A stretch of 64,000 bases of DNA, taken from NCBI RefSeq assembly GCF_008831285.2, contig NC_045149.1, positions 1,676,001-1,740,000 of the forward strand. Reading direction: 5' to 3'. Source of the stretch: Nymphaea colorata. Lineage: Eukaryota > Streptophyta > Magnoliopsida > Nymphaeales > Nymphaeaceae. Below are positions 26,094-54,464 of this stretch, piece by piece. The stretch's first letter is position 1. Each line of letters starts with the position of its first letter. A program made the translations under genes and the position numbers. Under the pieces are notes generated by a model. It worked only from the letters and a program-made list of their open reading frames with translations. It made no database searches and had not been told where the DNA came from.

Positions 26094-29000
26094 CCTCCCT
26101 CAAGAGAAACTTCATTTCCTTGATGTAGCTCATTGAGAACATTCAGACATAGCCTCGTTAACCTGTTTAGTTAATCTATCAGCTATTTCATCCTCAGCGG
26201 TGGGATAAGGAGCATGAACCAGACTTCTTAGCAATTAAATGACATACAAAATGTACATCGATTTTATGCATGCTTCTAGATTTTTTAGTACCTGGACAGC
26301 CAGCCCAATCGGCTTCTGAATAAACATGTATATACTTATCCCTTAAGGAGGCAAAGTGAAGACTATGTTGTAGATTTTAGATATGAAGAATACACTTCAC
26401 CAGCAATCCATGTATCACTGAAGGTTTATGCATGAGTGCATTGACTTTATTAACATTGATATAATATCTAGTTAAGTAAGTGTACTGTAATGCTTCAACA
26501 ATACTCCTGTCAAGAAAAAAATCATCAAAATCTGCACTATCACCACCATATAACTTTGCTTAGGACATTGGAGTCGAACCAGACTTGCACTCAATTGTTA
26601 TGGTCATTCATTAGTTATTCCATAGTATATTTTTGTGGTGATAATTGTGGCTCCTTGATCATCATATGATACCATTACTCCAAAAAAGTAATGAAGTCCA
26701 CCAAGATCTTTAAGGGCAATTTGGCTTCTAAGAATTTTTACATTCCAACTTGGAGAAGTTTTGTAGTCAAGATATCATCTTTGGGTATGCTTGAACTTTT
26801 AAAACTGATACTCATATGAGAGTTACTGACCTCTTGAAACCATGCCCTAGGAGCTAGCTTTAGCCCATGTAATGTTTCATGAAGTTGGCAAATATAAGAA
26901 GGCATTTGTGGATCCATGAATCTCGCAATTGGATCATATACACTTCTTGGAGGGTGCTATATATTGAGAAACATGCTATTGAAATCAAATGGTCATATAA
27001 TCTATCCCTTGGTTAAAGCAAGCTATAAAACCATTTGTATGGTGGCAAAATAACTACTGTAATGAAGGTCTCAAATAAATCAACATCTTCTTCTTCATTT
27101 AATTCCTTAGTGACAAGCTTAGGTTTAAGGTGCTCAAGAATTTTATTTGGCTTCCTTTAATATCATAGACCCTTTACAAAAAACAGCATTATAGTTGAGA
27201 GGAGGAGGAAGAAGCAATCAGGTTTGACTTGTTTGAAAATATTTAAATCTGTCCTCCATCGCTAAATGTGACTTAGCATCCCAGTTCACTTTCTCAAATG
27301 TCTTCAGTTTTATGTACCCTAAAAAGTGATTTAGCAAAACAATAGATAACATATATCGAGAGAAAGGCTTAAGAGAGCCAATTTGAAACCTAGTTACCAT
27401 TTGGAGGGTGCATTATGGCACAGGAGTGGCAAGATCTTGCTGGGGAAGGTCTCCATGGTCAATACCAAATCAATGTCCTCATGTGGTTCAGCTATATGGA
27501 AATAGAAATTGAGGGTGAAGTGGGAGCTTGATCATGAGAGGGCTACATCGGGTTAACATAAGAGTGTTCCTCACGCTTAGAAAGGAATCATCATAGATCT
27601 ATGACCTCAAATAGTTCAAGAACATGATTTAATGTAGATGTAGACAATTTAAACTCTTTATCAAAGGGAAAGAAATACTCTTCATTGTATCCAAGTCCAT
27701 GAAAACGTATGCATGATTATTCTGGCTATATCCCATAAAATTGTATGATTTGTATTAATAGTCTAGATTGGTGGACATATATGATCTTAGATTTGCATGG
27801 AAAAGGCAACCAAAGGCCTTGAGAGACTCATAGTCTGGTTAACCACTTTGAAAAGGACCATGAGAGAACTCTTGCTAATTTTGAACTATTTTGGAGGCAA
27901 ACAACATTAAAAGCAAAAGACCAAAAGCATGTGGGCATCTTACTCCAAGACATCAAGGTGGGACTGATGTCAATCAAGCGCCCATGTTTGCATGGACACT
28001 AAGAATCTATTCTATTCTTGAGCATGAGGGTGAAAAATATTCATGTATGATTCCCACCTTTTCAAATGGGGATCTATAACTTTGTCTTCTCATCCCTCGT
28101 AGTACGAAAGTTCTCCATATTCTTTCCAAACTACAGCCATGACCTTAAACTTTTGGAACATTAACAATACTATAGGTTTATGCTTTGGCAGAAATAGGTA
28201 TGCATGTTTAGAAAATGCATCAAAAATTATGATGTAGTATCAATGTCCAATTCCACTTAAAAGAGAGGGTGGTATTTAGACATTATAATAGATAGGCTTA
28301 AGGGGCTCAAGTTCACTATATTTAGTTTTATCAAATGACAATTTATAAAATTTTCCACACAAAGCATAAATATTAATAGAGCAACCAACAAACGGTAAAC
28401 AAAATAGAACTTTCAACTATTCTTAAGTTAGCATGGCCCAACCGATTATAGCACATTGTTCGGCCACCTTTCTCTCCAATTGAAGTAGTCCTTTCATTGA
28501 AGTCTCAAATATCCAAACATTTTAATTCCATCTTTCACCAATATATGCAACCCGTCCTTGCTAGCTTTGGTGTCTCTAATTTTGCATCTGAAGAATCAAA
28601 TTCAAAAACTATGTCATTGTCTTTAGCAAATCACTAAACTAAATGCAATTTCTAAAATTATAATAGAAGGAACATTAAAGATAGTACCCCTAAATAATTA
28701 TGAACAAACCACTTCAAATGAACTTCTACCAATATGTTGATTGTCAAACCTATGTTGTTTCTTGCCTTTATAGAATGATTGCCTATGCAGATTGAATAAA
28801 TTGAGGAAAAGCTCAAATCGTGCAAGATGTTGAGAGGCTCTTGGATAGGGTACCATGACTCCTCCCTACAAATGTAAAAGGTATAGACATGATGAGCATG
28901 AGGAGAATTCAATGATTCTGACTAAATATGGTGACATGTTTTGGTAGCATTACCTAGTTTGTCACAAAACTGATAAATAATTGATTGTCAATTTTTGTTG

Positions 29001-36310: not shown

Positions 36311-36322
36311 CTTCCCCTCAAG
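36311..36322 (-). other. Polypurine tract
   Basis: On the minus strand reads CTTGAGGGGAAG directly before the TGTTG of the 3' LTR; the classic copia plus-strand primer. Confidence 0.9.
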
Positions 36323-37194
36323 CTGGAGCATAGATGTCTATCATGTTTAGCTTGCTACAACACTTCATGAAATTAGATATTAGAAGAGCTTTGGTAAATA
36401 TATCTGCAGGTTGGTCTTCGAAAGCAACATACTCAGTAGAGATAATCCCTGCTTGGACCAAGTCTCTAATGTAATGACAATAAACTTCAATATGCTTGGT
36501 CCATTCGTGGACGACCGGATTATTTGCTATGTAAGTAGCCGCTTTATTATCACATTGCATTTTTATAGGCAATTCTACCTGAATTCCAAGACCTTCTAGC
36601 ATGCCTCTCACCCACGTGATTTCAGTGGCTGTTTGGGCCATGGCTCGATATTCTGACTCGGCACTCGATCGAGCAACAACAACTTGCTTTTTACTTCTCC
36701 AAGAAACTAAGTTGCCACCAACAAAGATACAGAATCCCGTAGTGGAATTTTTGTCATCAATTGAGGCTGCATAATCTGCATCAGAATAAGCTTCTATCTG
36801 AAGTGCGGTGCTTCTTCTAAATAATAGACCCTTTCCAGGGGATCTTTTTAGAAATTTCAATAATAACATAGTTGCATCCCAATGGGCTTTCCTTGGCTTA
36901 TTCATAAATTGGCTTAGTTTTCCCACAACAAAGGATATATCAGGTCTAGTAATTGTCACATATAGTAGCTTTTCAATGAGAGACCGATATGATTTGCTAT
37001 CAACAGGTTCAGATTTGTCATCATATAAATGAGTGCGAGAATTCATAGGAATAGAAGGTGGTTTAGTTCCAGTCATACCTGTTTCATGTAGCAAATCAAG
37101 AACATATTTTCTTTGAGAAAGGACTAGACTTTCTTTACTTCTTGCTGCTTCTATCCCCAAGAAGTAACGTAGAGAGCCAAGATCTTTAGTAACA
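36318..37194 (-). pseudogene. copia RNase H domain and polymerase C-terminal part
   Basis: An open stretch of 280 codons, the longest intact piece of the element. In order: FLGIEAARS, the LYVTITRPDISFVVG block, SDADYAA, then RSSAESEYRAMA, CDNKAATYIANNPVVHEWTK and QPADIFTKAL. The acidic residues of the RNase H signature in SDADYA, AESEYRAM and CDNKAA are present. One conserved position in the HIEVDCH-type motif reads Tyr instead of Asp (HIEVYCH), which may harm activity. It ends 8 bases before the 3' LTR, overlapping the polypurine tract. It joins the polymerase domain only through a frameshift near 37215. Confidence 0.9.
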
Positions 37195-38087
37195 AAATGT
37201 CGTTGTAAATACTTCTTTGTGTCTTGTATTTTTGTTCATTGTCACCAATCAAAATAATATCATCAACATATATCACCATAACAACTATACTTCTTGAAGT
37301 TCTTTTTATGAACAATGAATGATCTAAAGGCGATCTCTAAACTTAGACACAACATCACACAACTTCTGAAACCATGCTCTAGGACTCTGTTTCAAACCAT
37401 ATATAGCCTTATTTAACAAACATACCTTGGTACACTCCCTCTCTTTCTCAAAGCCGGGTGGTTGCTGCATATAAACCACTTCAGTTAAATCCTCATACAG
37501 AAATGCATTTTTAACATCCAGTTGGTACATGTTCCAACCATAATGAACTGCAACAGATATAATGGGTCGTATAGTGCCCAAACGTGCCACAGGAGAGAAA
37601 GTTTCAAAGAAGTTAACACCATATGTCTGTGTGCACCCTTTTTCTACTAAACATGCCTTGTAGCGCTCAACTGTACCATCTGAGTTGTACTTGATAGTGA
37701 AAACTCATTTCGAGCCAACAATATCTGCCCCATGAGAAAGTCCAACGAGATCCCAAGTGTGACGAGATATTAGAGAATCCATCTTCTCCTTCATAGCCTG
37801 GTACCACTTATAGTCCAACATAGCTAGTTCATGTGAAATAGGAATGGATGTAGCTGACAAGGCATCAATGAATTTGCACATATGGTCTCCCACATGAGTT
37901 GTACTAACAAACTTAGAAAGATGATGAACTGTGCATTGTCTAATCCCTTTACGCAGTGCAATAGGTAATTCATTAGGAACAGAAGCATCAAGGGAACACT
38001 TAGGCATGTCATGTAATTCAAAATTACTTACCTCCCGAGAGTAAGATGGTGCAGGGTCATTAGATGATGGATTTCTTCTTGAATATG
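37195..38087 (-). pseudogene. copia reverse transcriptase, broken
   Basis: RNA-dependent DNA polymerase region. The stretch 38007-37705 covers the part before the catalytic core and ends in a TGA (37707-37705) at a place where the family has Trp (before VFTIKYNSDG), so a TGG to TGA change is likely. The stretch 37590-37324 carries LDVKNAFLYEDLTEVVYM, QPPGFEKE and IYGLKQSPRAWF, and then shifts frame near 37330. The catalytic YVDD motif is intact in the next frame at 37259-37270. There is a further shift near 37215. The domain is complete in outline but cannot be translated as one protein. Confidence 0.9.
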
Positions 38088-39199
38088 TCAGAGGAGGATC
38101 TTTAAACCGTGGAATGGAGGGAGTGGAACAGGTGGGTGAAGATGAAAAGGAAGGGACTCAAGGGGAATTGGAGGAATTGGAAGTGGAACAGAAGAGGGCA
38201 TCTCAGACTTTGGATATGAAGGACTTGCAGAAAAGAATGGAGACGACTCGAGAAAGGTTACATCGGCACTGACAAACTCTCGATTAGATATAGGATCTAG
38301 GCATCGATACCCTTTTTGATTTCTAGAGTATCTCACAAACACACATTTACTTGTTTGAGCAGCTAGTTTATCTCGATTGGAACCAAGTTTATGTACAAAG
38401 CATGTGCACCCAAATATCTGTGGGGGTAAAGAAAATAAAGCTCTATTTGGGTAGAAAATTTGTATTGGAATTTTGTTGTCTATGGAAGATGATGGCATTC
38501 TATTTATTAGGTAACATGCAGTCAAAATTGCATCTCCCCAAAATTTGAAAGGCATATGAGAATGAATCATGATTGTGCGGGCTACATCCAACAAATGACG
38601 ATGTTTTTTTTCAACTACAGCATTTTGCTGAGATCTGTGAGGGCATGTAAAATGTGGCACAATACCATGGGATTTATAGAAGTCAAGTAAATGAAAGATT
38701 TGAACTCGAGAGCATTGTCAATGCAAACAACCTTGACACAATAAATAAATTGAGTTTTTATTTTCAATATGAAAGATTTCAAGATACAAGCAGCTTTAGT
38801 TCTCTCTTTCATCAAAAACACCCAAGTGACACGAGAAAAATCATCAACAATGGAAAGATAATAACGAGACGACAATCGACTTGGAACCCGACTAGGCCCC
38901 CCAAACATCAATATGAACCAAATCAAATAGACATTGACTAGACTGACTTTGACTCGATGGAAAGGAAGTACGACTTGCTTGCCCAGTTGACAAGTTTCAC
39001 ACTCGATAGACGTTGTGGAAGAAATATGAAGACATAGCAGCCGAAGTTTAGGAAATGATGGATGACCCAATCTGAGATGCCACTGGAAGGCACTTGAAAA
39101 ATAATCAACTAGGAGCGATGCCTCCTTATGGGATGTATCCAAGATGTATATTCCATCTATCTCATGGCCTCCACCAATCTTCCTCCCAGTCGATAGATC
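38088..39199 (-). pseudogene. copia integrase, broken
   Basis: Zinc-binding part: WHLRLGHPS followed by CETCQLGK. Catalytic core: the second acidic residue is in a CIDNALEF motif and the Glu in NAVVEKKHRH. The first catalytic Asp region is lost from the open frame, because a one-base loss near 38979 and an extra G in a six-G run near 38897 shift the frame between them. A second shift near 38680 separates the core halves. The C-terminal part has FGCTCFVH, KCVFVRYS and REFVSADVTF, and ends in a Pro/Ser-rich tail. The domain order is normal but the protein is non-functional as it stands. Confidence 0.9.
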
Positions 39200-40576
39200 C
39201 TAAAATACACAAGTACCCGAGTCAAAAATAACTCTGCAATTCATCTTCATCTCTTTAGTTAGTTTGCTTACAGATAACAAATTCTTCGAGAATTCAGGAG
39301 TATATAACACATCATGAACATGCAAAGATGGAGAAAGATAAACATCTCTATGTCCTTCTACTGGTGATAGTCTTCCATTTGCCAATCGAACATGTTGAGG
39401 TGAATCAAATTTCTGCAGGTTTGAAATACTAGTATCTCCACAAGAGTGTTTAGATGCTCCAGAATCAATTATCCAACAACCTTTAGAAGTAGTTTTACCT
39501 GCAGAGTACGCTGAACTTGTGACAGCTGTAGATGCCGATGAAGTAGAAGGAGTAGCATTTGATCTATGCTCCATAATTAAATCAATTTCAGCTGGACTTA
39601 AATTAAGAGATGTAGCATCTACTGAAGCAGCAGTGGGATTCGCCTTAGGAGCCATACTGATAGAGATAGACTGTGTGTTTGGAGTAGAGCTGGATGAAGA
39701 TGTCACAGACAAAGAAGTGGATGAGTTAGGTTTACCCACTTTGTTCCAGCACCTATCCTCTATGTGACCAAGACGACCACAATATGTGCACTGAAGTCTT
39801 CCACGTCCTCCAGGACTTCGGCCTCTTCCTCTACCACGGGAAGAGTATAGTCCACTTCTTCCTCCTTCAAATGAGGCAAGGGCAGACGGCTGTGAGTTGT
39901 TCGAGGATGGAGGAAGAGTAACAACCAATCTGTTTATTCTATTGAAGGTCTCATCAAGATCAGGAAAATCTTAACCTGTAAGCATTTGAGCCTTGGATGC
40001 AGAATTATCAGAAGATAGTCCAGCAAGAAATTTAACCACAATCATTTGCTCCATATGAGATTTGAGACAATGCTTACAGGGCGGTTTTAAGGAATTCATC
40101 TTTTCATAAGTAAACTTCAACTTTGTAAAATATTCTGTCAAATCCATGTTACATTGCTGCATTTGTAACAATTCTTGCTGAATCTTTAAAATTTTACAGA
40201 TATTTTTATCTTGAGAGTACGTCTTCCGAAGAGAATTCCACATATCTTTGGCTGTATTATAATAACAAAGCCTTGCTGCAATGTGGTGCTGAGTGCTATT
40301 CATAAGCCAAATACTAATAATGTTGTTTTCTTCCTCCCACCGTGTGTATTTACCAGTCTTTTCAACTGGTTCATCTTCTTCCAATATATATTTCTTTCCA
40401 TGTCCAACGACCGACAACATGAAGGTTCTAGCCCATACATCATAGTTGGCTCCATCAAATTTGATAGTAGATCCAAATGAGAATGGATTTGATAAAGCTT
40501 TGTATTCATCACCTGCCTCTATGTGATGATTTTCAGATTCAGTTCTATCAAGTTGTATAGATCTGTTGGCAGCCAT
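39200..40576 (-). pseudogene. copia gag and protease, interrupted by nonsense codons
   Basis: Starts at the ATG whose first base is 40576 (MAANRSIQLDR); the frame is open further upstream without another ATG. Gag shows the NYDVWARTF and WEEENNIISIWLMNS blocks of the copia Gag family. A TAA at 39973-39971 interrupts it in frame. Downstream come a Gly/Arg-rich patch, a CCHC knuckle (CTYCGRLGHIEDRC, 39790-39749) and the protease active site WIIDSGASKH near 39475-39446. A TAG at 39202-39200 then closes the frame, where the family usually has Gln (after CVF), and the integrase continues in the same frame. Gag normally forms the virus-like particle that packages the element RNA. Confidence 0.9.
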
Positions 40577-41181
40577 GATAAAACCACGAAAATAGATAAC
40601 TATAAAAGCCAACGGCAGACAGGATATGTACTAGCAACCACAGAATTTTCCAGCCAGATTTCAACACCAACCTACAGCAGACTGAACATAAACAACATTC
40701 ACAGACTTACTGCAGTCAGATTTCAAGACAAACCTGCTTCATTTTGACTGAGACTCAACCCTGCACCACACGGCCAGGCAGATCAGACGTTCACTGGTCT
40801 GATATTTTTAAATGACATCCATTGAGTCAAATCTGATATATTCTACGACATTCAGATCTGATCAACATCAACTGTTTGTCAACGACATCACCTAAGTTAG
40901 ATATGATACACTTTGACATTCAGATCTGAACAAAAACAACAACTTGTCAACTTCATCCGATTAGGTTCTTCAGCAACATGAAGACTTCGACAACAACATA
41001 GGGTGCAGATCACGTCTCTACATGTAGAACGTGATCAGCCCCTTTTTCATCAAGCAGTCCCACCACTTTTCTTGAAGGCAGCAACAACTTTAGACGTCCA
41101 ACCTTGTCGTGAATGAAGGGATGAGAAAAAGAGAAGAAGGGAAGCCGCGTGAAACCCTAGACGGCACAGTCCTAGGTCCGA

Positions 41182-41438: not shown

Positions 41439-41534
41439 AATGTGAAAAGGTTTGAGTATAGACTTATCTCCTTATGCAGCACATATATGTCGTGATCTCC
41501 AAAGTTATGGTCTAAAGATTGAGATATCATAACA

Positions 41535-41735
41535 ACATCTGGTCAGAAGAGCCCTCCAAAGATCCTGGGCGGTCATCGGCTTTCCAAGCTTCGAGCTTCC
41601 CTTCATTCACTATAACTATGATAAAGAAGACCTCGGGTATAGAAGTACGAGCTTTAGCTCGACATATAGGTATGTCTGCTCAAAAAGCACGAAGGGTAAT
41701 TGATCAAATTCGTGGTTGCTCCTATGAGCACAAGC
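41535..41735 (+). pseudogene. rpl22: Plastid rpl22 fragment (NUPT) inside the LINE
   Basis: From the ATG at 41618 the + frame reads MIKKTSGIEVRALARHIG then MSAQKARRVIDQIRGCSYE. This is the N-terminal third of plastid ribosomal protein L22; the K-A-R-R-V-I-D-Q-I-R-G-x-S-Y-E block is diagnostic of plastid L22. After residue 37 (41728) the similarity stops and LINE sequence resumes. The 80 or so bases before the ATG are neither LINE nor a sequence I recognise, and open in frame; they could be organellar, filler, or part of a former nuclear leader. L22 binds 23S rRNA in the plastid ribosome. This copy lacks two thirds of the protein and is not a gene. Confidence 0.8.
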
Positions 41736-42530
41736 GTCATGCAGTTACGAGAAGTGATCAGATTATTCAACCTAACCAAACTACCTTCTCTATGGGGAGG
41801 CACATCCATGATATTATCCTATGTACAAATGAAATGGTCAATTATGAGGAATTTTGGAGTAAATGTGGTTGTTTAAAGTTGGACATTTGGCAAAGCTTAT
41901 GATAGTTTCTTTTAGCTTCCCTAAGAACAATATGCTTGTGTTTAGATTCTCCCCAAGGTGGGCAGAGAAAGTAATTGTGTCACTTCAGTTTCTTATGAAA
42001 TTTTGGTTAATGGCAGACTTGGAGAAAGGTTCGAAGGTAAAAGATGTTTGAAGCAAGGGGATCCAATGTTCCCTTACCCTTGTATCATGATTATGAAGGT
42101 GTTCAATAGATGTCTTCAGGCTAACATAAGCAACAGAAAAATTGAAATTCAAAAATTTGTAGAATGAGGCAAGAGATAGGGATGGCAATGTTCGCCAGAT
42201 GATGGGCTCCTAGTTGCAAAGGCCAGCAAGTACTCTATTCTATTCATTAGGGGAATGAATTTGAAAGACTAGCATACAAGAAGGTTAATAAAGAAAAAAA
42301 AGATTAAGGCAATGAGGTTCTTAGGATGTTCAACTGGTGACTTGAGTAATTTTATGAGATGGCCTTTGGGGTCTCTCCTGGCCAACTATCTTGATTTGCT
42401 AGTTGTTTACAGATCAGCTCACATAGGCCCTTTGTTTCTCTTATTTACAAATAGAGAAGAGAATGACAGGATGGAAAGCTTGACATGTTAAAATCATGAA
42501 AAAGAGATGAGTGTGAGAGAGAAACGACAC

Positions 42531-43078: not shown

Positions 43079-44351
43079 TTAACATTGTGGGTGAAATTCT
43101 AGTAGCATGCCATTATCTTTCGTAAACTTGTGTACTGAAAGTATATTTTTGGTGATAGACAGCACATGCAAAATATCTTTCATTATGAATTTTGAGTCAA
43201 TATGAAAAAAAACAGAGGTTCCAATGTGTTCAATGTTCAAACCTTGTCCATTACCGATGCGAATTTGATCTCCTCCATTATAGCTAGATTGGATTGTCAA
43301 ATTGTTGAAATTTGATGTGGCATGGTGTGTAGCTCCAGAGTCAGGGTACCATCCTCCATGATCAAACGAACCATGTACATCAACGTCATGTGCTTTAATA
43401 GATGAAGCTTCCAATTTTTATGATGTTTGTATGTGTTGCACTTCCATGCATCATGACCAGATTGACGACATGCTTGTAAAACCGTGTGACAATTTGCTGC
43501 AATATGTCCATTATTTCCACAAGCAAAGAAAGATGGGAGATCGATCTTGATTTTTACTTTGTCTCTATTATTCTTAAAATGATTTCGGCCAAAGTTTTGA
43601 TTTTTCATAGTAAAACTCACCGATGAATTTTCTGTAGAGAAATTATCTGTTTCATCCAATTGTGACTCATGAATAAGTAACATTACATGCAAATATTCCA
43701 AAGTGATAGAATCGACCCTAGTGTTTAATGCAGTTCTAAGGGACCCATATTCACTAGATGGTAAACCAGCCATAATACAAGTGACAAGATCATCATCTGG
43801 TTTTGATGTCAGTGCTAATTGGTCAGCAATACCTTTTGCTCTACAAAAGTATTCTGAAATAGATTTTGTTTCCTTTCTTAAATTTTGGAGTTGGCTTTTC
43901 AATTGCTAAGTTCTAGCTCTTGACCGTGCAGCATACATTCCCCTGAGAGCATTCCATAATTAATGGGAAGAAGAGAGTCCCACAACATGACTACGAACTA
44001 GATCATTTAGTGACAAGAGAATCTGGCTTAATAAAAGTTGATCCAATCTATACCATTCATCATATTTTGGATTGTGTCGCTTTAAGCCATTGTTGTCATC
44101 TATCCATTTAGACGGCATCGTTGTTTACCATCAATGAATCCCATAAGATTATAACTCTTAAAGAGAGGTGTGAACTATGATTCTCAAATTAAATAATTAT
44201 CTTATGCACGCTTAATGGAAAGGAGATACTGCAGATTTGTAGGTGTATGTATGAAGCATAGGAAAGATCTGACCTGTATTTCGTGATATGTCTAGTGTAG
44301 CAGACTTTGGTGCATGCTGCTATTGAAGGAGATTCATGCCATAGAGCTTTG
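43079..44351 (-). pseudogene. copia gag and protease fragment
   Basis: Minus strand. The Gag N-terminal part near 44125-43920 shows MPSKWIDDNNGL and DEWYRLDQLLLSQIL, followed by stops near 43965 and 43910. An open stretch 43902-43297 continues Gag (FCRAKGIADQLAL, IMAGLPSSEYGSL) and carries two knuckles, CGNNGHIAANC and CRQSGHDAWKC. A frameshift near 43400 leads into the protease with WYPDSGATHHAT (in 43414-43079). The family differs from the element at 36-41 kb (DSGATHH versus DSGASKH). The polymerase is absent, so this is a truncated element. Confidence 0.8.
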
Positions 44352-44364: not shown

Positions 44365-44700
44365 TAAAAAGGAAGGCACACAAAAACTCAAATAACGTGG
44401 TTCAACTCAGGTTTGAGTCTACATCCACAACCAACCAGTTTCTCTCTCACACCTCAATCGTTTGTGTGAGAGGGGTTCTATTGACTTTTAAAGGAATACA
44501 CCCTTTGGAAGGTTTAGCTATTCCCTTAGTTTTAGGATCACAATTGCAGTCAATATCTTGATGATCTTCTTGGATATAGATTTGATCTCCTTTCCTAATT
44601 TTCTGATCAACCATATTTGCAACTGTTTTGGCTACCGCTGCTACTTTGTGTTGATCCTTATCTTCAATAGGGTTGCAAGTACATTGACAGCAGCAGGAAT
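44365..44700 (-). repeat. Probable 5' LTR of the truncated copia
   Basis: Starts at the primer-binding site. It contains the GTTCAACTCAGGTTTGAGTC and TCTCTCTCACACCTC words common near copia LTR ends. The outer boundary is not clear and no partner LTR remains in the window. Confidence 0.45.
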
Positions 44701-44739
44701 GAGCTACCTTGGAGATGGTAAGGCGGGTGTGGCATCAAG

Positions 44740-45072
44740 GGCAGAGGTAAGGGTGGGCGTCGGGCCCGGCCGCCGTCGGGTACCCTGTACCCAGCCCGGT
44801 TGGGCCCGGATCTTGGCCAGGAAAACCGGCTCCTGGGCCGGGCCTGGGCCAAATACTGCAGCCCAGGTCGGCCCGGCCTGGCCCGATCCGGCCCGCTCCC
44901 CCTCTGGCCCTCCCCCACCCCCTCCGTCTCCCTCTCCCCCTCCGGCCCTCCCCCACCCACTCCGTCTCCCTCTCCCCCTCCGGCTCTCCCCCTTCCCCTC
45001 TGTCTTCCTCTCCCCTTGGCCACCGGGCCGGGTCGGGCCTGGCCCAGCCCGATGCCCACCCCTAGGCAGAGG
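44740..45072. mobile_element. GC-rich hAT-type MITE, intact, with perfect 8-bp target duplication
   Basis: Element 44748-45064 (317 bp). Left terminus TAAGGGTGGGCGTCGGGC; right terminus, reversed, TAGGGGTGGGCATCGGGC: 16 of 18 bases agree. Identical octamers GGCAGAGG flank it at 44740-44747 and 45065-45072, the hAT hallmark. The interior holds GGGTACCC and GGGCCCGG palindromes and a C/T-rich minisatellite. Proline-rich ORFs on both strands are composition artefacts. It encodes no transposase and would need one in trans. Confidence 0.92.
44897..45017. repeat. 38-bp pyrimidine-rich minisatellite inside the MITE
   Basis: About three units of 38 bp starting CTCCCCCTCCGGCCCTC and ending CCGTCTCCCT, plus a partial fourth. 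The complement matches the 32-39 bp purine-rich units at 1-345, so the array belongs to the element family. Confidence 0.85.
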
Positions 45073-47943
45073 TAGGGGGCCAGCAGGGGCTATGGCCTCC
45101 CTTCAGATTTTAAAAAAGTCAAAAATTTACTTATAAATTTAAGAATTCTAGTTTAACCTATATAAAAAAAAATTGTAAAATTATAATTTGGCCCCGATTA
45201 AAATTTTGAAACTATATTTAAATGGCCCCTGCGATGAAAAACTCCTAGCTCCACCCCTGTGTGGCATCCATGGTAGGAGCAAAAAGAAGATTTTTTGAAG
45301 CTGACCCGGCTGTTCTATAGTGTGTTCTTAAATACTACGAGGACTATGGAGATGAAGTTTTGGGCTTAGATCTTCCGTTTTGAATATCATTTAGTTTTGA
45401 AATAAAAGTTGGGACCTAATGCCCAGCATGCTTTTTACTTCAATCGCGGGTCGGCTGGCTCTTGATTCAATCTATGAGTAATCTATGAGTTGATTGTTAA
45501 TCCACAAAAAGGATTGTCGTATTTATTTCTTTTTCAAAAAGCAAACGGGAAAAAAAATATTTTTAAAACTTAAAATAAGAAAAAGCTATAATATTATTTC
45601 AAACATAACATAAATGAGCGGTGGGTAAAATATTTAGTAGCATCTGTATCCTAAGGTAAATCGAATCAATTTGCCAACAATATGATTCGAACAGTCTAAT
45701 CGGCCGATTCTCACAAAGCTATATTCAACTAATTGTTCGACCTTATAATCTAATGGCACCATATATGGGTAGGCTTTTGGATTGTATTGTATAAAATTTA
45801 CAACTAAGTTGAAAGTTTTAGGTGCAACTGAATTTTCAAATTCAGCAAGAAGATCCTACAATATAATTTGGATTTAGCTACGAACTGAATTCATTTTTGT
45901 TGCAAATTAATTTGATTAATAATGGTATATGAAGGGGTGAGCCAGAAAGGTTTTTCTATGGGACACTAAATATATGGTTAACAAAGTTTCAATTAATCGT
46001 AAGGCAGAAAGGTTTTTCTATGAGACACTAAATATATGGTAACAAAGTTTCAATTAACCATGGGGAGGTGATTCAAATCACAAAAATCTACCTCATATTC
46101 ACCCAAGTTTCAACAATAAATTAACATTTGACGGAGTCGATAGGTCCCACGGAAACCCCACCTGCACCCGTGATATATGATCAATATACATACAGAAATG
46201 TATAAAATCGATCACATACCATCCTAACTCCGGATGACTAGATTCAAGAGCTTAGAACCTATCTAAATAACAGTAGGGCGCGTTCGATCCTGATCGTTGA
46301 AATGGGCTCTGCGTTTTTTGTATTTGTCCTGATGTTATATATCAAAAGGAGCAGAGAAAAGAAAAGGGGCGGCAGGACTTTGGAAATGACCGGTCCATTA
46401 TGGCAGTGCCTTCTTAGACATGGGCCTTGTTTTCCTCCATGAAAAGACAAGGCCACGTCCAATGGATTCCCTTCTAGTCAAACTTCAAAATATTCCCAGC
46501 ACCTCAAAATGCTCAGGAGAATTGGATCGGATCGATCGGGTGCTCACTATTCTTCTAGTTAATCGGGTCGATACGCTTGTCCTTGAATACTCTAGATCTA
46601 TATACGATTAATAGTTACCAAGTGTTAACTTAAGATCAAATTGATCAATATCTGACCTATAACTTTTTCTAGTTTATATTTATATATATGTAATGTTCGT
46701 GGATTTTGCCCAAGGGAGCTCTTTTCGAATAAATGATATAACGTTATTGAATAATTAAGACGCCTGCTTTTTCACTGGAAGCAAAGGTATAATTTTTTTT
46801 TTATGGGGTAAATAATTAACAAATTTTTAATTAGTTTTAGCGCGGTGAATTCGAATCTCCTGAGGCTGCCCTATATAATTGGACCAAGGTCTACTGAAGT
46901 TTAACATGTATATTGGAAGTTTCATATTGGGCTTAACATGTATATTGGAAGCTTCAGATTGGGCTTCGTGGGGCATACGCCCCATGGAGCCCTCACATAT
47001 CTCTGCCCTTGTTCACGTGCTTCACAAAATAGGCTCGTTCCGCTGAGAAAATTAAGCATATAAATAAAGTACATATAACTAAATAAGCTACATATTTACG
47101 GCAAACTTAGATAATTTCATTGTTGATCAGTTGCATTAAATTAATGTCATATACGTTACTCATAACCACATTGATTTCCAAAATAAAAAACGGATACTGC
47201 CTTCTCTTATATTCGCATTACTTTTATACAAGTGATGCATATATCATAGGGATATGAGATCCAGAGATCTCCTTTTTATACAAAGTTTGCACGCATTCTT
47301 TTTTAGTACTACAGAATTAACCATATATATATATATATATATATATAGCCCTTTACAAATTGTTCAAATAGCTTTTAATCTTTTCAAGCTAAATGTGTGT
47401 TTTTAACAAGCAAGAAATTATATGAATATTTGTAATCAATCTTTTTTGGAACCAGACTATGTTCCATGGCATTAATAGATATTGCATATATTTATTTCTC
47501 TAATAAGGTCAAAATCATGCCAAAGGCATTTCATCAAGGGCGTGGAGGTACCTAGGTTCTTGCGATCCATTTTTGCAGACATAATATATAAGGCGCCTCT
47601 AAAAACATTGTAGTGCTCTTCTTATTAAATGCGTACAGTTAGATGCGTTTACCATGGACTAGTTTAGTAAATAATATGTACTAATGTATATATGCTTTCT
47701 GAAGAATTGAAAAGACAACTGACACTGGTGCCACAAAAAGTTAACCACGAAATGTTAAACATTTTGTAACAATAAATCCAGTCAATTCCACTTATGGATT
47801 TGCTAAAATATAAAATAACACATCCAACAGCTCAGCTTAACGGAAATCTCACTTTATCTGTTTCCTATGTCCCTGGACCCTGCATGTGTCTAAGAAAAGA
47901 CTTTATATCTACTTAATGTACAATATCCTACACAGTTAATTTG

Positions 47944-51697: not shown

Positions 51698-53243
51698 TTG
51701 GATTTTAAAATTTTTTATGTTTAGTATTTTGCTTTTAAAATTCGATCAAGGGAAAAAGCGGCCGCTAAGGGACGGTTAAGCTTTGGGAAGAAAGCAAAGC
51801 AGGCGTGGGAAAGCTGGTGGGTGAGCACTCGGTGTTATTTTATACATGGAGGCAGAGGAAAACATGACAGGACAAATAACCTCTACACATGTCGACCCAC
51901 CAAATATCCCTCCATGTCTCCCTCCTGTAAGCTACCCAACATGCCTTAAAAAGTAAGAAGGTTAGCTTAGCTAGTTTACGGTGATTCATGCAATTTATGC
52001 CCATATTTGCAATTTATCAACAACTCTCCATCCTAAATTTTATGGTGATTCATGCAATTTATGCTTATACTTCACAACTTATCAACGGTTTTGATCCAAG
52101 TGAAGGCGGAATCCTTCTTCCTTCGACCGCTTGTCTACAGGGTGCAAGGGTTGCGTCCAAACCTAGAATGGGGTCGGTGAATTTTTCTAATGAAAATCAA
52201 GGATTCCCAATCCAACAACAAACTGTGCTACTTTGTCTTAAAGATAACAACTGATCAAGATTGCATTTTGAAGCCTTGTAGATACATCATGACTTGACAA
52301 CAACCTGGTTGATCAAATTTCTCCACTAATCTATTCTAAGTCAAGGACTGAAGTTGTCATTTATTTAATTGTTGACTTAGCAATTCGTTGATTAGACGCA
52401 AAACTATGTAAGCTTCTCCTTTTATTCCCCCCTTTCTTTTTTACTTTAGTCAAGCGGATGGAACATTTGAGATCTATAGACCCAACGCAAGGCTAGCGTA
52501 GCCATATTCTCAAGTTTATCAATTTTGGGAACATATCTATATGCTCTATTCTAGCTAAGCAAGCCACTAGCTCCATGGAGCTAAAATCTATATATATATA
52601 TATATATATATATTCACCCTTAAAAGGCTCACTCGCTACAATCAACTCGCACGTATAGCTAACCATTGGTGTCTAATCAAGGAAAAATGAGAAATCAATT
52701 GAGTCCCCACCAACTTGGTACGTGGGACCCACCTGCTGAAAGCAGCCCCAATGGAATTATAGATAGCTTTGGAGTCATCCCTTCAAGGGCATATTAGTAA
52801 TCAAAAGAAAGAATAAGCAACTTTACTTAAATAAGATTAAACGCAGCAGGCACTAGACTACTAATATAAAGGGAGACTGAAAAAAAGATTCATTTTTCTT
52901 TTTTCTGAATTCCACTAATTTATCGGCAATCGTTGATCTGTCGGGACTCGAGTAGTAAACAACGTGCTCTCACCTGCTCATACTCACACTACCCCACAAC
53001 CCCTTTTTTTTAATTCAAAAATAAAGTGTTAAATTATTCACCGTTGATCTTTGATAGAATATTAAAAGCAAAAAAAAAAAAAACATGCTTGATGCCACGG
53101 ACCACAGTGCAAGCCGAAGTCCTCATTTTTTTTTCTTTGTTTTGGGGAAAAATTTTCAAACCTGCAATACCACCAATCCCCAAAAACCACCCCTCCCTAA
53201 AACCGCGCCTGCTCCTGCGTGTGCTGAAAAGAAGACAAACCCT
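50854..53243. other. Spacer upstream of the AHL gene
   Basis: No other gene recognised. A CT microsatellite lies at about 51658-51695 and TA tracts at 51106-51114 and 52590-52612. The T-rich and A-rich stretches at 52990-53080 directly precede the transcribed leader. Cis elements for the AHL gene are probably here but none can be assigned with confidence. Confidence 0.5.
52865..52870 (+). promoter_or_regulatory. Candidate TATA box for the AHL gene
   Basis: TATAAA in CTAATATAAAGGGAG, about 0.69 kb before the coding start, which would give a long leader. It is one of several AT-rich possibilities. Confidence 0.2.
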
Positions 53244-53280
53244 AGAGAGAGAGAGAGAGAGAAGAGAGAGAGGGAGAGGG
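53244..53280 (+). repeat. GA microsatellite, probably in the AHL leader
   Basis: (GA)n with small interruptions. GA/CT tracts are common in plant 5' leaders and promoters and can bind GAGA-type (BBR/BPC) factors; that link is inference. Confidence 0.6.
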
Positions 53281-53429
53281 CTTCATCCCTCTTCATTCTT
53301 TTCTTTCCCTTCTGCTACACCAACAGAGAGCTTCCCTAAGATCTCGGAGCTGCAGCAGCAGAAGCAGGAGAGAGAGAATACGTGTTCATCACACGAGAGA
53401 AGTCTGCAAATCTTGCTGTTGATAGATAG

Positions 53430-53444
53430 ATGATAGATACCTAA
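53430..53444 (+). other. Short upstream ORF (uORF)
   Basis: ATG ATA GAT ACC TAA, four codons, in the same frame as the AHL protein but closed by its own stop 111 bases before the CTG start. If the leader is transcribed from upstream it would be the nearest AUG before the AHL frame, and could lower or modulate initiation downstream. Confidence 0.4.
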
Positions 53445-53555
53445 TCAGTCATCGCTGTCCTTGGTTGCTCTGAGAATTTCTTCGTCTTAATTTGCTTCTT
53501 TCTCTCTTCTTCTTTTTCTTCTTTTAAGAGGGAGAGTGCAGAAACAACAGAAAGC

Positions 53556-54464
53556 CTGGCAAACAGGTGGTGGACCGGCCATGTGGGGCTGCCGAGCCTC
53601 AACCCGGCCGGCGTACCGGCGAGTTCTCCGGCAGGTTCGTACCGGAGCTCAACCGACTCGCTCTTCCCTAACCTCAACAAAATTGATAAGACGCCTATAC
53701 AGTCTGTGGACGACAAGACCGCAAACCAGGCGTGCTCGGAGTCATCCCCAAGGGAGACCAAGTCTGATCCCGAGCACGATGACCCGAATACCGGACAGGA
53801 GGTAGTGGAGGCTGGATTCCGGCGTCCTCGCGGCCGGCCACCGGGCTCGAAGAACAAACCAAAGCCGCCGATCATTATCACGAGAGACAGCCCGAACGCC
53901 ATGAGAACGCACGTCATGGAGGTCGCAAACGGGAGCGACGTCGCCGACTCCATCGCCGTCTACGCCCGCCGGAGGCAACGCGGTGTCTGCGTGCTAACTG
54001 GCAACGGCACGGTTGCGAACGTCTCTCTGCGCCAGCCAGCCGCCCCTGGATCGGTGGTTACGCTCCACGGCCGGTTCGAAATATTGTCGCTCTCCGGCGC
54101 GTTTCTGCCGGGACCTGCACCACCAGGTGCTACTGGACTGACAGTTTACCTCGCCGGTGGGCAGGGCCAGGTTGTAGGCGGCAGTGTCGTCGGACCGTTG
54201 GTAGCTGCCGGGCCTGTCATGGTGGTGGCCGCAACCTTTTCCAACGCTACGTACGAGAGGCTGCCGCTCGAAGATGAGGGAGAGATGCCAGGTGCGGGTG
54301 CGTCCGCTGCCGGAATCTCTGCGTCCCCGGGCTCCGGTGGCGGTGGCTTAGGAGAGGGACCGCCACTCCCCATTTTCAATCTGCCTCCGAATTTGATGAC
54401 CAACGGCCAGCTCGGGCACGACGCTTTCCCCGGATGGGCGCCTTCTCGGCCACCAACGTACTAA
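53556..54464 (+). CDS. AT-hook motif nuclear-localised protein (AHL19/AHL20-like), apparent CTG start
   Basis: DNA-binding regulator of the plant AHL family: nuclear proteins that bind the minor groove of AT-rich DNA and act as trimers through their PPC domain, repressing growth and defence genes. About 302 residues, single exon, TAA at 54462. Residues 1-11 read [11 protein letters not shown], matching the family start M-A-N-x-W-W except that codon 1 (53556) is CTG. AT-hook near 88-104 ([17 protein letters not shown], core RGRP 92-95). PPC domain about 109-234 with [16 protein letters not shown] at 172-177 (the interaction motif) and [16 protein letters not shown]. The tail ends RPPTY, as in relatives. 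The first in-frame ATG is at 53901, after the AT-hook, so it would give a non-binding protein. An out-of-frame ATG lies at 53581. GC-rich compared with its surroundings. Family: very sure; start: uncertain. Confidence 0.93.

Follow-up and report, generated by a model that had tools for sequence, protein, structure and literature searches.

In the genome of Nymphaea colorata, a gene of the AHL family has CTG at the position where a start ATG would be expected. With a probability of roughly 0.55, translation of this gene begins at the CUG with initiator Met-tRNA and gives an ordinary full-length AHL protein at a reduced or regulated dose. The gene lies in a window of 64,000 nucleotides (nt) with a GC content of 36% (assembly GCF_008831285.2, contig NC_045149.1, positions 1,676,001-1,740,000 of the forward strand), and all positions given here are counted within this window. 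Use of the CUG, its efficiency and its fixation in the species are what we infer from the features described below. The probability given above, like the weight given to each rival account, is a matter of judgement and was not computed.

An AHL reading frame headed by CTG

The AHL frame is a single uninterrupted run on the forward strand from 53445 to 54461, closed by TAA at 54462-54464. From 53556 its codons read CTG-GCA-AAC-AGG-TGG-TGG, and the surrounding letters, GAAAGC-CTG-GCA, place A at -3 and G at +4, which is the good context for a CUG start in plants (a purine at -3 and G at +4). The residues A-N-R-W-W are encoded right after the CTG; we take M-A-N-x-W-W to be the N-terminus of the AHL family, so that CTG occupies the position of its Met. 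The first in-frame ATG is found at 53901, downstream of the AT-hook, and no in-frame AUG would yield the whole protein. A first-pass annotation of the same sequence had already described a frame open from 53445, the lack of an ATG before 53901 and the CTG in its context, and both its coordinates and its letters were confirmed. Across the 302 codons no second lesion is seen, and the 909-base coding sequence contains no frameshift.

Composition indicates where coding begins. Third-position GC of the AHL frame is 0.41 in 53445-53555 and rises to 0.78, 0.65 and 0.71 in the three next blocks up to 53900. The change-point of third-position GC falls at 53553 (interval 53547-53571), with 24 of 1000 shuffles giving one as strong, and that of GC at all positions falls at the same place (interval 53526-53574; 2 of 1000 shuffles). 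By third positions, the onset of coding composition thus lies no more than about five codons from the CTG. The shift at 53553 from leader-like to coding-like composition places the start of coding at the CTG or very close to it, which disfavours an upstream extension or a spliced upstream exon. The stretch 53556-53900 stays open in this frame in 2.98% of 5000 mononucleotide shuffles. By this openness together with the composition break at the CTG, the observation is more than chance. A position-specific coding score, which was trained on the C-terminal part of the AHL gene and is given little weight, reaches 5.0 in frame over 53556-53900, against -9.5 and 2.1 in the other frames.

The protein itself has the expected parts of an AHL protein. 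Its frame matches PF03479 (PCC/DUF296) with an expect value (E) of 6.4e-23 and 81.7 bits, the cut-off being 25. The AT-hook has the core R-G-R followed by G-S-K-N-K, and this is the sole R-G-R in the translation, which corresponds to one type-I hook. Clade-A (type-I) AHL proteins are described as having one type-I AT-hook and a type-A PPC domain, encoded by genes without introns, and the general form of the type-A PPC domain starts with L-R-S-H and has T-K-H ahead of GRFEIL (PMC4209074). The N. colorata gene resembles them in its hook core, in G-S-K-N-K, in a PPC domain with GRFEIL and in a coding sequence that runs from 53556 to 54464 without an intron. It differs in that CTG stands where, by the N-terminal motif, the start ATG is expected, and in the PPC domain, which starts with M-R-T-H instead of L-R-S-H (2 of 4 residues agree; the M is the first in-frame ATG) and has T-L-H instead of T-K-H (2 of 3). 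On these sequence features, the gene fits an intact AHL gene of type-I clade A. Among sequences of solved structures, eight distinct ones were matched up to E 10, the best of them (E 0.076) being a putative DNA-binding protein aligned to the PPC part. No relatives were found in a collection of genome contigs, whether the query was the whole protein or a 152-residue AT-hook/PPC part; this collection contains no plants and is uninformative on conservation. The same limit applies to viral contigs, where the full protein, a 71-residue PPC part and a DNA pattern encoding the N-terminus gave no relatives. A structure prediction made without relatives (mean predicted local distance difference test score, pLDDT, 36.9; predicted template modelling score, pTM, 0.19) was set aside.

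Proposed initiation at CUG and competing accounts

In the proposed mechanism, the strong context of the CUG at 53556 would let scanning 40S subunits recognise it with initiator Met-tRNA, perhaps with the help of a GC-rich hairpin that starts 20 nt downstream. Among near-cognate starts reported in plants, CUG is the most frequent (PMC8770321, PMC11062462), and CUG starts are reported to be decoded to initiator Met (PMC5461538). The full-length protein would therefore be ordinary, and only its amount, lower and perhaps regulated, would differ. The first-pass annotation expected each account to affect the trimeric AHL complex differently; a CUG start would change dose and not the complex itself. 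Subunits that miss the CUG would mostly start at the out-of-frame AUG at 53581. Because they meet this AUG first, a PPC-only protein from 53901 would be at most minor; a second out-of-frame ATG, at 53779, also lies ahead of 53901. Such a product would need more leakage, or a restart about 95 nt past the stop of the 53581 frame. A hook-less PPC protein had been suggested earlier as a product of the locus; 53901 is indeed the first in-frame ATG, but with the AUGs at 53581 and 53779 met first this protein is probably not the principal product. When overexpressed, the AHL protein SOB3-6, whose hook is defective, is reported to be dominant-negative (PMC9377115), and by analogy a PPC-only protein, if made, could behave like it. 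In an extended form of the proposal, a fixed and selected CUG would set AHL dose by start stringency, while ribosomes passing both the CUG and the AUG at 53581 would make from 53901 an antagonist that binds full-length AHL and not DNA, so that one mRNA would give both products in a ratio set by start-codon strictness. We regard this extended form as very unlikely.

The hairpin is predicted at about -24.7 kcal/mol, is GC-rich and has arms of 6 and 7, so that it was not listed by a repeat search for arms of at least 8. The fold of the first 95 nt of the coding sequence is more stable than 972 of 1000 synonymous draws, and ranks second of 55 windows along the gene. In vitro, a hairpin 17 nt into the coding sequence, and less so one at 11 nt, is reported to have raised starting, while hairpins at 5 and 35 nt did not; in the same paper, hairpins are predicted at nt 22 in tobacco RpoT, which starts at CUG, and at nt 30 in AGAMOUS, which starts at ACG (PMC2001202). 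A hairpin at nt 20, only modestly unusual in this gene, is taken as a supporting hint only.

Several observations, however, weigh against initiation at this CUG or against help from the hairpin. By dinucleotide shuffles the hairpin is ordinary: a fold of 71 nt has z -0.39 (67 of 200 shuffles as stable) and one of 145 nt has z -1.63 (16 of 200). Pairing is not raised at nt 12-18, where 162 of 300 synonymous draws were as high, and not clearly raised at nt 19-30 (83 of 300). In the fold of 95 nt, base pairing includes the CUG, and 53545-53564, which spans it, is 75% complementary to 53402-53421, an arrangement that could bury the CTG. The position-specific score peaks at 53574 (5.55), six codons inside the frame, compared with 5.01 at 53556. 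Other near-cognates with a purine at -3 and G at +4 occur upstream in frame, namely ATC at 53451 and AGG at 53529 (A and G), of which AGG is reported among the least-used near-cognate starts (PMC11062462). Finally, a base error or a start lost only very recently would be just as likely to leave the composition break and the intact frame.

The choice among a CUG start, a start loss and a base error had been posed in the first-pass annotation, and it is the right frame for the question. The same annotation proposed that one A had been lost, and loss of one A from AAAGCC-ATG-GCA does give the observed letters; an A-to-C substitution in AAAGC-ATG-GCA explains them equally well. Either single change would also account for a recent start-loss allele, in which the gene is decaying or makes little but a truncated PPC protein, and its open frame is inherited. 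The internal AUG at 53901 sits exactly at the start of the PPC domain, and a young loss would agree with the unbroken frame and the change in composition. Nevertheless, the absence of a second lesion in 302 codons speaks against decay, and only one of the nine random substitutions of ATG yields CTG, the best-used near-cognate in plants by published reports (PMC8770321, PMC11062462). Since a CUG in such a strong context should still start some protein, a loss would be partial. We hold a start loss to be unlikely. A base error in the assembly, the plant truly carrying ATG, is somewhat less likely again: a single letter would restore a perfectly ordinary gene, but the CTG site is not a homopolymer and the remainder of the 909-base coding sequence is free of frameshifts.

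Two further accounts place the start upstream, and the coding composition that appears only from about 53553 counts against both. In one, a distant exon would supply an ATG, spliced in frame for example to the AG at 53528, which follows a pure pyrimidine run; this was the upstream exon that the first-pass annotation had named as capable of overturning its reading. Back to 50001, an ATG, a donor and an acceptor can be combined in phase in 33 ways, with a best donor of 8.2 (donor scores use plant weights with a maximum of 12.1 bits). However, shuffles give a mean of 31.1 such combinations (60 shuffles, 27 with as many), none with a donor of at least 7 uses the AG at 53528 or 53530, and the best donor in 52860-53528 reaches only 2.5 of 12.1 bits. 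AHL genes of type I are, moreover, described as lacking introns (PMC4209074). The partial check thus leaves the upstream exon weak, and we consider it highly improbable. In the other account, a different in-frame non-AUG codon such as the ATC at 53451, with G at -3 and at +4, would start a protein with an N-terminal extension. In a study of Arabidopsis, 12.6% of the alternative starts were AUC (PMC8770321), but 53445-53555 is leader-like, with its third-position GC of 0.41, and this is the least probable account of all.

Plant genes reported to have non-AUG starts

CUG-only starts have been shown or reported for RpoTp of Nuphar and tobacco, and plant nuclear genes that start only at non-AUG codons are called rare cases there (PMC3022604). 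The AHL gene resembles AGAMOUS (ACG) and the tobacco and Nuphar RpoTp genes (CUG) in having no in-frame AUG ahead of essential sequence, and, like AGAMOUS and tobacco RpoT, it has a hairpin predicted at nt 20-30 of its coding sequence. It differs from them in belonging to another gene family, and from Nuphar RpoTp in that the CUG of the latter was shown by reporter constructs (PMC3022604), whereas the AHL case is proposed from its sequence. In the literature searched, no AHL gene with a CUG, CTG or other non-AUG start was found, a result that does not establish absence from print. Judged by title, the matches to a search on CTG start codons in plants were all bacterial, and those to a text search with N-terminal peptides were off topic. 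If confirmed, the AHL gene would be added to the few plant genes known to begin at a non-AUG codon.

AHL proteins are dose-sensitive. The overexpression and dominant-negative phenotypes reported for SOB3 support this sensitivity (PMC9377115). A CUG start would then be a natural case of a chromatin regulator whose level is set through the choice of start codon. Annotation that insists on ATG would either miss the gene or shorten it to a PPC protein lacking the hook. Should the CTG prove to be a base error or a private allele, its importance would be confined to annotation.

Leader and surroundings of the gene

Features of the AHL locus are collected in Table 1. In 52401-53540, the motif TATAWA occurs only at 52865, aside from a TA repeat at 52589-52613. 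If transcription begins near this TATA-like sequence, the leader would include two long upstream open reading frames (uORFs) of 84 and 113 codons in 53085-53433 on the forward strand; the second ends in TGA at 53431, which overlaps the ATG at 53430 that opens the short uORF. The first-pass annotation saw further control in this short uORF and in the out-of-frame AUG at 53581. Both are present, although the uORF has a weak ATG (T at -3).

Table 1. Coordinates of features at the AHL locus (window positions).
Feature	Positions	Strand	Remarks
TATAAA, possible TATA box	52865-52870	+	
Short uORF MIDT	53430-53444	+	T at -3 (weak context)
Upstream in-frame ATC, alternative non-AUG start	53451-53453	+	G at -3, G at +4
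AG after pure pyrimidine run, 3' splice-site-like	53528-53530	+	no good donor in 52860-53528
AHL coding sequence, CTG to TAA, 302 codons	53556-54464	+	open frame, composition break, Pfam PCC
CTG replacing start ATG	53556-53558	+	A at -3, G at +4
Predicted RNA hairpin, from nt 20 of coding sequence	53575-53611	+	AUG 53581 in its internal loop
Out-of-frame AUG, 74 codons, stop at 53803	53581-53805	+	G at -3, T at +4
AT-hook, 14 residues	53820-53861	+	translated motif
PPC-only frame from first in-frame AUG, 187 residues, no AT-hook	53901-54464	+	
PPC (PCC) domain match	53904-54242	+	Pfam, converted from residues 154-266 of open frame

Over the whole window, Rfam (at its gathering threshold) and ARAGORN gave 0 matches each. 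A frame at 41516-41899 on the forward strand contains KARRVIDQIRGCSYE and weakly matches ribosomal protein L22 (E 0.0074, below the Pfam cut-off). It is presumably part of an organelle-type L22 gene, either a single exon or a fragment; words expected from the next L22 exon were absent from the six frames of the window. On the reverse strand, 36318-40630 holds a broken Copia-type long terminal repeat (LTR) retrotransposon with gag, SH3-like and reverse transcriptase pieces in separate frames. A second Copia-type remnant at 43082-43905 has gag and a Pol beta-barrel domain, and a short piece at 26741-26956 gives a weak reverse transcriptase match (E 0.0002, below the Pfam cut-off), both also on the reverse strand. 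The stretch 44600-45100 is GC-rich (0.745 at 44800-44999) and has long open frames on both strands.
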